This document shows positions 13,192 to 15,546 of a DNA stretch of 64,000 bases, in pieces (position 1 is the first letter of the stretch; each line of letters starts with the position of its first letter). Below the pieces are notes generated by a model. That model was not told the DNA's origin. It searched no databases and saw nothing but the letters and a program-made list of their open reading frames with translations. The stretch lies in contig NZ_CP088285.1 in assembly GCF_011516645.4 (NCBI RefSeq), positions 4,358,501 through 4,422,500 on the forward strand, read 5' to 3'. Position numbers and translations under genes: made by a program. The stretch is from Bradyrhizobium septentrionale. Its GTDB lineage: Bacteria > Pseudomonadota > Alphaproteobacteria > Rhizobiales > Xanthobacteraceae.

Positions 13192-14106
13192 TCACGCCGG
13201 CAGCAGAAGCTGTGCGCGCCGCCCCATCTCCGCATCGAGCCAGGTCGCGAGATCCTCGCTCACCTCCACCATCGGCAGCCGCACCTCGGGGCTGTCGATC
13301 AGCCCCTGCCGCCACAGCCAGTGCTTGGCCGGCGCGGGGCTGGGCTCGGCGAACAACAGCCGGGTCAGGCCGACGACGCTCTGCCAGGCGGCCAGCGCCG
13401 CGTCGCGCTGGCCCTGCTGCAACAGCGTGCGGATCGAGGCGAAAATGTTTGTTTCCAGATGTGCGGACAGCAGGATCGCGCCGTCGGCGCCGTCGGAGAG
13501 CGCATCGAATGTCTGGGCATCCTCGCCGGTCAGCACGCGGAAGCCCGCCGGCCGCCGGCTGAGGAAGTCGATCGACTGCGCGCGGTCGGCGCAGCAATCC
13601 TTCATGCCGGCGATGTTCGGATGTTCGGCAAGCGTCAGCAGCGTCTCGTTGGTCAGGTTCACCGCCGTGCGATAGGGAATGTTGTAGAGCACGATGGGCC
13701 ATGCGGCATGATCGGCGAGCGCGTTGAAGTGCTGCACCAGCCCGCGTTGCGAGGGGCGGGTGTAGTAGGGGCTCGCGATCAGATAGCCGTTGATCGGCCA
13801 GTCGGCGGTGTCATCCAGCACATGCTTCATCCGGGCGGTCGAGGCGCCGGAGAGCCCGAGAACGACCGGCAGATGGCGGGAGCTGGCACTGAGCTCGGCG
13901 AGCACGACGCTCACCAGCCCCTCGAGTTCATCGGTGCTGAGCGCCATGCCTTCACCGGAGGTTGCGCCGAGGATGAAGCCGTCGACAGGGCCGCCGGCGT
14001 AGTGCCGCACGAGGCGGCGCAGCGAGGTGACGTCGAGTTCGCCGTTACGGAACGGCGTGATCAGGGGCAGCCAGAGGCCCTGCAGTTGCTGGTGTAAGTC
14101 AGTCAT
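13192..14106 (-). CDS. 4-hydroxy-tetrahydrodipicolinate synthase (DapA) family protein
   Basis: A 304-aa Schiff-base-forming TIM-barrel aldolase. The lysine is Lys169 (AGMKDCC), the proton-relay tyrosine Tyr141 and the carboxylate-binding Arg146 are in YNIPYRT, and the Thr-Ser pair is in GATSGEG. These match the DapA set (Thr44, Thr45, Tyr133, Arg138, Lys161 in E. coli), and the kept Arg favours DapA over the NanA or KDG-aldolase branches. An AGGAGA site precedes the ATG. It does not sit next to smpB as the main alphaproteobacterial dapA often does, so it may be a second copy. The upstream leader with lysine codons supports a role in lysine or diaminopimelate synthesis. Confidence 0.85.
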   Translation of the reverse strand: MTDLHQQLQGLWLPLITPFRNGELDVTSLRRLVRHYAGGPVDGFILGATSGEGMALSTDELEGLVSVVLAELSASSRHLPVVLGLSGASTARMKHVLDDTADWPINGYLIASPYYTRPSQRGLVQHFNALADHAAWPIVLYNIPYRTAVNLTNETLLTLAEHPNIAGMKDCCADRAQSIDFLSRRPAGFRVLTGEDAQTFDALSDGADGAILLSAHLETNIFASIRTLLQQGQRDAALAAWQSVVGLTRLLFAEPSPAPAKHWLWRQGLIDSPEVRLPMVEVSEDLATWLDAEMGRRAQLLLPA

Positions 14107-14147
14107 GTTCCATCTCCTAAGAGGGCAAAGCCGGAGACGGGACCAAC

Positions 14148-14174
14148 AAAAAACCCCGTCCAGGCGGCGGGGTT
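14148..14174 (-). terminator. Intrinsic terminator in the dapA-like leader (attenuator)
   Basis: On the minus strand the stem AACCCCG / CGGGGTT with a 9-nt loop is followed by six T residues. It lies 42 nt upstream of the dapA-like ATG and downstream of the leader promoter, so it must be read through for the gene to be expressed. Confidence 0.8.
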
Positions 14175-14203
14175 TCGGGATCGGTTTGAATGCGAAGGTG
14201 ATC

Positions 14204-14278
14204 TTATCGCGCGCGATCTCGTGTCCCCGGGAGGGGACCTTTTTTCGACGACAGAGCGGCGCACGAAGTCGTGATCAT
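14204..14278 (-). CDS. Putative leader peptide with tandem Lys codons (24 aa)
   Basis: Codons read MITTSCAALSSKKGPLPG and then TRDRAR-stop. Codons 12 and 13 are AAA AAA, unusual in this high-GC genome where AAG dominates, and they directly abut the first hairpin of the leader (14223-14238). The ATG begins 7 nt downstream of the proposed -10 element, so the mRNA would start at or within a base or two of the A of ATG, as for leaderless trpL of rhizobia. It is inferred to be a sensing peptide rather than a functional protein. Expression is not shown by the sequence alone. Confidence 0.5.
   Translation of the reverse strand: MITTSCAALSSKKGPLPGTRDRAR
14223..14238 (-). promoter_or_regulatory. Leader hairpin 1, competing with the terminator
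   Basis: Stem GTCCCC / GGGGAC with a 4-nt loop, immediately after the two AAA codons on the minus strand. Its 3' arm (CGGGG) is also a perfect match to the CCCCG 5' arm of the terminator, so the two hairpins can exclude each other through a 2:3 antiterminator pairing. A ribosome stalled on the lysine codons would cover the 5' arm. Confidence 0.6.
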
Positions 14279-14284
14279 GGGACA

Positions 14285-14313
14285 ATGATGCTGCGCTGCG
14301 AGGTTGTTGTCAA
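14285..14313 (-). promoter_or_regulatory. Promoter of the dapA-like leader
   Basis: A perfect -35 TTGACA (14308-14313, minus strand), a 17-bp spacer and a -10 CATCAT (14285-14290). The predicted start site is at about 14278, which coincides with the ATG of the leader peptide. Confidence 0.65.
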
Positions 14314-14361: not shown

Positions 14362-14392
14362 AAAAAAAGCCGGGCTCGAGAGAGCCCGGCTT
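14362..14392 (-). terminator. Intrinsic terminator downstream of the LysR gene
   Basis: Minus-strand stem AAGCCGGGCTC / GAGCCCGGCTT with a short loop, followed by seven T residues. It is a strong terminator that separates the lysR transcript (stop at 14626) from the dapA-like promoter. The 230-nt stretch between the lysR stop and this hairpin is long and could be a 3' UTR or a small RNA. Confidence 0.85.
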
Positions 14393-14474
14393 AAGGTATT
14401 GGCCACGTGAGGCCGACACAATCACCTTCCAAGAGGGATTACTGAACTTCCGCGCCACTGGAGGAGGGGGACAT

Positions 14475-14654
14475 ATGCGCGACGCGACCGCTCAGCGTGT
14501 AAGCAATATGATCCCCATCGGCGCCTTGCAGCAACTATCCAGGTCGCATGTCAGTCATGCGGAGATTCAGGGGCCTCTTGGGGCAGCGCGGCAAGCCCAT
14601 AACCCAGTCCATAAAGGCGGCTTAATCAGGACGGCCAGCGCTGCGCCTTGCTGA
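14475..14654 (+). CDS. Candidate small protein, 59 aa, antisense to the lysR 3' end
   Basis: An ATG follows a very strong ribosome site (GGAGGAGGGGG, spacing 4) in the gap between lysR and the dapA-like gene. The predicted product starts MRDATAQRVSNMIPIGALQQ and ends in TASAAPC; the last ten codons run antisense to the lysR stop region. I recognise no domain, transmembrane segment or signal peptide. The ribosome site is the main support, and a chance open frame cannot be excluded. Confidence 0.35.
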   Translation: MRDATAQRVSNMIPIGALQQLSRSHVSHAEIQGPLGAARQAHNPVHKGGLIRTASAAPC

Positions 14655-15546
14655 CCACGAAGTCGCGGAACACCTGCACACGGGCCACCGTCTTCAGCTC
14701 TTCCGGATAGACGAAGTAGGTGTCGAGCGCGATCGAGTCGGACTCGCCGAACAGCTGCACGAGGTTGTTCTGTTCGACCAGATAGTCCGGCAGCGCGGCG
14801 ATGCCGAGGCCCTGCTGGCAGGCGCGCACGAGGCCCAGGATGTTGTTGACCTTGAAGTAGGGTTCGCGCGGACCGGAGCCGTTGCGGCCGGCATCGATCA
14901 GCCAGCTGCGGTTCTGCAGATGCGGCGGCACCTGCGAGTCGCCGAGCATGATGATGCGGTGCGAGTCGAGATCATCCAGCGTCCGCGGCGTACCGAAGCG
15001 CTTGATGTATTCCGGCGAGCAATAGGCGTGGAAGCCGATCGAGAACAGCTTGCGCTGGATCAGGTCCGGCTGGGTCGGCTTGCGGGTGCGGATCGCGACA
15101 TCAGCCTCGCGCATCGACAGGTCGAGATCCTCGTCGGTGACGATCAGCGAAATCCGGATGTCCGGGTAGAGCGCAACGAACTCGTCGAGCCGCGGGATCA
15201 GCCAGTTGATGCCGAGCGCGGGCGGCGTCGTGATCTTGAGGTCGCCGCTCGGCCGCTCGCGGCTGTCGGTGAGCTTGGCGCGGGCCGCCTGCAACTGCAT
15301 GAACACGTCATGCGCGGTGCGGAACAACAGGTCGCCCTGTTCGGTGAGGATCAGGCCGCGGGCATGGCGGTGAAACAGCGAAACCGAGAGCTCCTGCTCC
15401 AGCGCGCTGACCTGGCGCGAGACCGCCGATTGCGACAGGCCGAGCTGTTCGCCGGCATGCGTGAAGCTGCCAGCCTCAGCCGCTGCGTGAAAGACCTTCA
15501 GCTTGTCCCAATCCATATCTGTAAATCCGTCGCGAGATCGTGCCAT
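14626..15546 (-). CDS. LysR-family regulator, VtlR/LsrB type
   Basis: A 306-aa LysR protein with the winged helix (MDWDKLKVFHAAAEAGSFTHAGEQLGLSQSAVSRQVSAL) and an LTTR effector domain. The sequence and its place directly behind trxB match the alphaproteobacterial VtlR (Brucella) / LsrB (Sinorhizobium, Agrobacterium) group. Those proteins control small RNAs, small membrane proteins and oxidative-stress genes needed in hosts. The ATG at 15546 is 3 nt past the trxB stop, so the genes are co-transcribed; a start at 15516 (MDWDK) is also possible. Orthology is by recognition of sequence and synteny. Confidence 0.9.
   Translation of the reverse strand: MARSRDGFTDMDWDKLKVFHAAAEAGSFTHAGEQLGLSQSAVSRQVSALEQELSVSLFHRHARGLILTEQGDLLFRTAHDVFMQLQAARAKLTDSRERPSGDLKITTPPALGINWLIPRLDEFVALYPDIRISLIVTDEDLDLSMREADVAIRTRKPTQPDLIQRKLFSIGFHAYCSPEYIKRFGTPRTLDDLDSHRIIMLGDSQVPPHLQNRSWLIDAGRNGSGPREPYFKVNNILGLVRACQQGLGIAALPDYLVEQNNLVQLFGESDSIALDTYFVYPEELKTVARVQVFRDFVVSKAQRWPS

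Follow-up and report, generated by a model that had tools for sequence, protein, structure and literature searches.

The closest described systems are the trp attenuators of E. coli, S. meliloti and B. japonicum (trpL/peTrpL), in which a short leader frame places tandem control codons before segment 1, the 1:2, 2:3 and 3:4 pairings exclude one another and an intrinsic terminator is present. The leader analysed here, from Bradyrhizobium septentrionale, is alike in all these respects. The trp attenuators carry Trp codons and control trpE, whereas lysine codons and a paralogue of dihydrodipicolinate synthase (DHDPS) are found here, and a further segment 5, able by prediction to pair with the Shine-Dalgarno region, is a feature of this leader unlike the trp attenuators. 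Rhizobial trp leaders are described as leaderless in S. meliloti (PMC7298713, PMC10117765). In the same organism a leader peptide named SEP5, with six Thr and three Lys codons, is proposed in the 5'-UTR of a gene called aspartate dehydrogenase (PMC10117765). By its description in that text, SEP5 resembles the leader studied here in being proposed for a rhizobium, in having Lys codons in its frame and in concerning the aspartate amino-acid family. It differs in its mixed Thr/Lys codons and in its gene. The lysine riboswitch (L box, RF00168) shares the lysine-dependent control of lysine genes, but it binds lysine directly, unlike the leader-frame feature reported here. For the lysine genes of V. 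natriegens, the consulted text of a 2026 paper describes control by a riboswitch and by ArgP as well as a thr leader, but no lysine leader (PMC12925634).

The initial annotation of this locus knew of no lysine-codon attenuator of dapA in this group of bacteria, and no lysine-codon attenuator of dapA was found in the titles and abstracts searched, most subscription journals being outside reach. The terms dapA, attenuat-, lysine and leader peptide gave no hit when the main text of the B. japonicum start-site map (PMC4842269) was searched by word. The analysis indicates that a ribosome-mediated transcription attenuator with lysine codons very probably controls a second DHDPS gene of this genome. 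The feature is real and its reading as an attenuator is supported, on wholly computational grounds; pending experiment, the leader is placed among the trp-type attenuators, lysine being the new amino acid.

Organization of the locus

The window is the whole stretch of 64,000 nucleotides that was analysed. The promoter TTGACA-N17-CATCAT, the frame of 24 codons in which codons 12-13 read AAA AAA, hairpin 1, the peptide stop and the terminator, all named in the initial annotation, were located on inspection of the sequence at the places given there, within 14313-14107 of the minus strand. The features are as follows.

14308-14313, minus strand: -35 box TTGACA (sequence)
Between TTGACA and CATCAT, minus strand: spacer of 17 nt from -35 to -10 (sequence)
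14285-14290, minus strand: -10 box CATCAT (sequence)
14204-14278, minus strand: leader ORF of 24 codons, MITTSCAALSSKKGPLPGTRDRAR and stop, predicted to be leaderless (ATG at the predicted +1)
14276-14278 and 14204-14206, minus strand: leader ATG and leader stop TAA
14240-14245, minus strand: control codons AAA AAA, Lys12 and Lys13 (conservation)
14233-14238, minus strand: segment 1, 5' arm of hairpin 1, GTCCCC
14223-14228, minus strand: 3' arm of hairpin 1, GGGGAC
14223-14229, minus strand: segment 2, CGGGGAC, 3' arm of hairpin 1 or lower antiterminator strand (CGGGG at 14225-14229)
14214-14218, minus strand: 5' strand of the second antiterminator helix, GATCG (predicted folds, shuffles, half-swaps)
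14179-14183, minus strand: 3' strand of the second antiterminator helix, CGATC (predicted folds, shuffles, half-swaps)
14168-14172, minus strand: segment 3, CCCCG, 5' arm of the terminator or antiterminator partner of segment 2
14148-14158, minus strand: segment 4, CGGGG (14154-14158), and T6 (14148-14153) of the intrinsic terminator
14133-14140, minus strand: segment 5, CCGTCTCC, complementary to the Shine-Dalgarno region of the dapA-like gene and partly to segment 4
14110-14117, minus strand: Shine-Dalgarno region GGAGATGG, predicted to be paired with segment 5
13192-14106, minus strand: putatively regulated gene, DHDPS-family paralogue of 304 aa (TIGR00674, PF00701, residue comparison)

The intrinsic terminator precedes the structural gene, as seen in the sequence and the alignment. 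The order of terminator and ATG was given correctly in the initial annotation, but the distance is 41 nt between the last T and the dapA-like ATG at 14106, and not 42 nt. Upstream of the leader are found a LysR-type regulator gene (14626-15546) and trxB, and the gene order lysR, leader, dapA-like is kept in all 30 loci fetched.

A second conserved RNA-like element occupies 14362-14541 of the minus strand, in the interval that separates lysR from the promoter of the dapA-like gene. It holds GTGTCGGCCTCACGTGGCCAATACCT exactly in 28 of 30 loci, has its own terminator at its end and is possibly a small RNA gene. For the leader locus itself, an AbcR-type small RNA, an idea which arose from the lysR-trxB neighbourhood in other rhizobia, was rejected; only sub-threshold Rfam matches were obtained and the reading frame explains the data better.

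A lysine-binding riboswitch would suit the position upstream of a gene of lysine-pathway type and the presence of a terminator. However, no Rfam family matched at gathering score in the window, the leader and the 14362-14541 element included. The RF00168 covariance model gave no match in any of the 61 genomes examined from the order, as against matches in 4 of 14 control genomes, and the conserved feature is a reading frame. The riboswitch is thus given almost no credence as compared with the attenuator.

The putatively regulated gene and its product

The initial annotation assigned the gene to the dapA family, which was correct as to the family; the gene is, however, a paralogue and not the best dapA of the genome. 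PF00701 matches the product, whose TIGR00674 score of 204.8 bits falls just below the cut-off of 206.15, and the genome has two genes above this cut-off (354.5 and 250.8 bits). With the first covariance model the leader was absent near either of these higher-scoring dapA genes. The closest PDB relatives of the product by sequence are solved DHDPS chains.

The product retains the DHDPS catalytic residues, which we take to be T44, T45, Y107, Y133, R138 and K161 (E. coli numbering), with Ser at T45. The positions presumed to form the lysine site of E. coli DHDPS (S48, A49, H53, H56, N80, E84 and Y106) are occupied by G, M, T, L, A, R and Y, so that six of seven are lost. In the one gene of the genome set beside it, the best DapA, the same positions hold S, P, H, H, N, E and Y. 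As the catalytic residues are kept and the lysine site is apparently lost, we may reasonably infer a lysine-insensitive DHDPS isozyme under Lys-tRNA control. Control through codons and an apparently lost allosteric site for lysine would then come together in one isozyme.

Conservation and distribution of the leader

The feature goes beyond chance. The 224-nt stretch holding it was matched in 35 of 36 Bradyrhizobium genomes, the source genome included, and 24 genomes from other families gave no blastn match. G006 (93% complete), the one Bradyrhizobium genome that misses the leader, is also without a close copy of the gene, its best protein match having 32% identity. Most of the loci that were not recruited by protein came from searches with the leader or its models, and the 32 loci recruited by protein alone are therefore the sole unbiased test of presence. 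The leader was found in 31 of these 32 Bradyrhizobium loci; the remaining one, L072, has ACG in place of the leader ATG. The survey of all 112 loci, which allowed only 33-36 nt between the -35 box and the ATG, gave 99 with the leader, L072 with the gene and no leader ATG, and 12 without the gene (other leaders, chance matches or, for L127, a contig end). The leader ORF is hence present in 99 of 100 gene-holding loci and 95 leaders are distinct. Some loci are the same genome taken twice, for which the counts of distinct leaders allow.

Covariance models, the first built from 39 leaders and a wider one from 34, revealed leaders upstream of the orthologue in another eight genera belonging to the family (g49, g44, g52, g69, g30, g50, g37 and g54). 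The wider model matched 19 of 297 genomes of the order at E 1e-4, comprising nine of Bradyrhizobium, seven from five other families with a dapA-like gene downstream and three other leaders, two of them before thrS-like genes and one before an AsnRS-like gene. The other 278 genomes gave no match at this threshold, a count of leader matches taken irrespective of whether the gene is present. The sets A1, A2 and A3 used below are 39 leaders chosen for diversity out of 62 loci, in which rows L045, L067 and L068 are short of their first 1-3 bases and L066 has 8 extra.

Leader frame and lysine codons

The distance from the first T of the -35 box to the leader ATG was 35 nt in all 55 loci fitting a pattern that allowed 31-41 nt, 7 of the 62 loci lying outside the pattern. 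We infer a transcription start at or very near the leader ATG. The leaders were anchored at a Lys with Gly six codons later, which fits 93 of the 95 distinct leaders; L118 has the Lys and an Arg (CGG) at codon +6, and in L049 Glu (GAA) replaces the anchored Lys.

Conservation of the Lys codons in relatives was one of the checks suggested in the initial annotation. Codon 0, six codons ahead of the hairpin codon, is AAA in 94 of the 95 distinct leaders and in all seven leaders from five other families; codon +1 is AAA in 82 and codon +6 is GGG in 94 of the 95. AAA is a minority codon in the neighbourhood, accounting for 3 of the 30 Lys codons in the dapA-like, lysR and trxB genes. The rest of the peptide mostly drifts between genera while AAA stays. 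The residues at the Lys position vary between genera (KYR, KNR, KHR, KDR, KRR, KSK, KVKK, KSKK, KAKAK), those of other families are SKKF, KLKR, SKKP, SKKS and SKQ, and several genera have a single Lys codon (KY, KN, KH, KD, KR, KQ). The small number of Lys codons, only two, had been named as the weak point of the proposal. For a count of two this weakness is mild, because B. japonicum peTrpL is described with two Trp codons (PMC7298713) and some relatives have KVKK, KSKK or KAKAK; other relatives, however, have only a single Lys.

The distance from the ATG to the Lys codon takes four values, 27, 30, 33 and 45 nt, all in phase, and the distance from the stop to the terminator ranges from 22 to 35 nt with every phase represented. 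As the ATG is fixed from the -35 box and is in phase with the Lys codon, while the stop and the terminator stand in all phases, I take this as a sign that selection maintains a lysine codon that is translated and set at a constant position. The Lys is in frame partly by construction because it was sought in the translation; what counts is the ATG at fixed distance in phase with the Lys codon, and not the frame of the Lys alone.

The AAAAAA could instead be an unstructured A-rich stretch serving processing or protein binding, the terminator merely yielding a small RNA with no amino-acid sensing. The invariance of AAAAAAG in the 39 leaders of A1 is in accordance with this, as is the second conserved RNA-like element, with its own terminator, directly upstream. 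However, distant leaders either keep one AAA amid changed neighbours (GAT AAA TAC, ATG AAA CAC) or have several AAA at codon spacing (GCG AAA GCG AAA); in both cases the frame is that of the ATG and the hairpin codon follows six codons later. A bare A-rich tract does not need such frame-keeping, and this explanation is considered very unlikely.

The leader ORFs end in RAR (61) or CAR (20) among the 95, mostly via GCGCGC before the stop. These 81 endings, together with the good conservation of the leader peptide inside Bradyrhizobium, would suit an arrest peptide, a nascent chain that itself halts the ribosome in response to a ligand, with the Lys codons there by coincidence. Among other genera and families, though, little is kept beyond the Lys and an Arg-rich C-terminus (MINRAAHRNDKYRASIGAGDARAR, MRSFTKAKAKASNIRGPETIRLR, MILACFISMKLKRLPIVGTEDRCAL), which renders an arrest peptide highly improbable and leaves a stall at the lysine codons as the preferred reading. 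A C-terminal tail of the RAR/CAR type was found in other leaders too, and it pairs with TCGTGCGC near the start in some free-RNA folds.

Predicted stall-dependent folding of the switch

A stalled ribosome was placed at every codon in turn, and the RNA lying free ahead of it was folded as it would be before segment 4 has been transcribed. When codon 0 occupied the A-site, the 2:3 antiterminator had P>0.5 in 93 of the 95 leaders (an effect first seen in 39 leaders), with 92 at codon -1, 92 at +1 and 89 at +2. The number dropped to 2 at codon +3 and 0 beyond, and only 4 of the 95 passed this level without a ribosome. Stalls at codons -8 to -2 gave 28 to 50 of 95, so that the effect has a sharp limit towards downstream codons and only a partial one towards upstream codons. 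Folding in L100 and L102 is poor with the stall at codon 0 (P 0.25). The seven leaders of other families gave P(2:3) of 0.96 to 1.00 at codon 0, 0 to 0.01 in free RNA and 0.21 to 1.00 with a stall five codons upstream. A switch-like profile was obtained for 86 of 95 native leaders as against 7 of 475 shuffles, in which the leader was shuffled upstream of segment 3. The upstream stalls and the partly constructed frame argument each weaken the case for the attenuator slightly.

The E. coli trpL control in a like scan gave 1.00 at codons 8 to 13, a range that takes in both Trp codons, as against 0.09 in free RNA, a stall profile similar to that of the dapA-like leaders, thereby supporting the trpL-type logic that had been proposed. 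In the source genome itself a strict trpL pattern gave no match and a loose one gave five, of which two were inspected and neither was a leader.

The 1:2, 2:3 and 3:4 pairings are predicted to be mutually exclusive, and with segment 4 absent a stall at the control codons is predicted to favour 2:3. The exclusion of the hairpin 1 3' arm and the terminator 5' arm, as described in the initial annotation, agrees with the complementarity of CGGGG (14225-14229) in segment 2 to CCCCG (14168-14172) in segment 3 and with the 2:3 pairing at codon 0. In hairpin 1 the outer U-A pair shows 4 changes on both sides and is broken in 7 of the 39 leaders, and the inner three pairs are nearly invariant.

Once segment 4 is included and folding is taken to full equilibrium, the terminator prevails at every stall position in 35 or 36 of the 36 leaders fitting a strict pattern, and it also prevails in E. 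coli trpL (0.98-1.00). Equilibrium folding with the whole terminator was therefore rejected as a model of the switch, as no useful stall effect was obtained, and folding before segment 4 was used in its place. Since the terminator wins at equilibrium as it does in trpL, the switch must be kinetic, with folding following transcription. The blocking of the terminator by a stalled ribosome, as claimed earlier, is thus predicted for folding ahead of segment 4 (93 of 95) and not for full equilibrium.

Predicted second antiterminator helix

The minimum-energy folds revealed that CGGGG:CCCCG is continued past an internal loop by a second helix. The 2:3 pairing had been proposed correctly in the initial annotation, but this second helix had been missed. 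Its letters depend on the group of leaders, being GAUCG:CGAUC in one group and, in another, UCGG opposite CCGA with A-U pairs close by, as judged by eye. The enclosed antiterminator stretch was more stable than the shuffle mean in all 39 leaders, 31 of them below z -1, with a mean z of -1.7. When halves were swapped between the two groups, which were split by a motif rule, the summed energy was higher than native in 308 of 324 pairs. Over all 708 pairs differing on both sides the native combination had the lower energy in 528 and the higher in 134, with 46 ties; among ten leaders viewed singly, L016, L028 and L029 show no preference for the native partner. RNAalifold, which is column-based, did not recover the second helix on the MAFFT alignment. 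As the swap groups share much history, the support for a predicted second antiterminator helix is moderate.

Proposed mechanism

RNA polymerase would start at or near the leader ATG. With ample Lys-tRNA the ribosome would clear codons 12-13, and either hairpin 1 or the ribosome itself would separate segment 2 from segment 3. With segment 2 unavailable, the terminator would form and transcription would end about 130 nt in. When Lys-tRNA is scarce, the ribosome would stall with AAA in its A-site and cover segment 1. While segment 4 is still to be transcribed, segment 2 and GATCG could then form helices with segment 3 and CGATC. This predicted antiterminator would block the terminator and the dapA-like gene would be transcribed, presumably in dependence on lysine. 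If true, the lysine-specific case joins amino-acid sensing by stalled ribosomes, and it suggests a route for sensing lysine shortage in an order in which RF00168 was matched in none of 61 genomes.

Segment 5 and the Shine-Dalgarno region

The complementarity of segment 5 to the Shine-Dalgarno region is conserved. CCGTCTCC pairs with this region with a mean P of 0.92 in 94 leaders, L054 having been left out as it has no GGAG. With segment 3 engaged by segment 2 and the Shine-Dalgarno region still untranscribed, the mean 4:5 pairing is 0.98 (94 of 94 leaders), as compared with 0.11 (10 of 94) in free RNA. At equilibrium with 2:3 kept, only 9 of 94 leaders had their Shine-Dalgarno region freed by over 0.2, and a translational switch at equilibrium was rejected on this account. 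In a swap test of segment 5 against the Shine-Dalgarno region the native energy was lower in 1398, tied in 530 and higher in 1192 of 3120 cases, and covariation was not demonstrated.

It is speculated that masking of the Shine-Dalgarno region by segment 5 may form a second, translational layer of control. Segment 5 would hide the Shine-Dalgarno region in leaky read-through RNA, and segment 4 might hold segment 5 for a time once the antiterminator forms. A wider proposal can be made only tentatively and is rather doubtful as a whole: a family of lysine-codon attenuators in several families of the order, acting at the two levels of terminator and segment 5 masking on a DHDPS isozyme without lysine feedback, with lysine sensed via Lys-tRNA and not by the enzyme.

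Leaders of similar build before other genes

The build of the leader, with an ATG at about the predicted +1, an Arg/Ala-rich tail and a terminator, recurs before thrS-like, asd-like and other genes. This recurrence opens a set of candidate attenuators for testing.

The downstream genes of these leaders were assigned by eye. A Thr-codon leader (MNKLFSAASTTTATADGGSPAGCAR in the source genome) stands before a gene resembling threonyl-tRNA synthetase in L103/L162, which is the source genome, and in L150, L151 and L163. Leaders rich in Thr and Lys (MITATKRTTKTTKPSGASGGVRA in the source genome) stand before an asd-like gene in L192 (source genome), L110, L111, L161 and L186. L152 has a leader with three Asn codons (MSSLPAHMVNNNGPSGVVDAVRA) before a gene like asparaginyl- or aspartyl-tRNA synthetase. 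In L108, L109, L112 and L153-L160 a conserved leader of similar build (for example MIKSSRTFNRNHMTRFGWAVGGVAR) precedes a small gene, which in L154, L157 and L160 resembles a DUF1127 protein.
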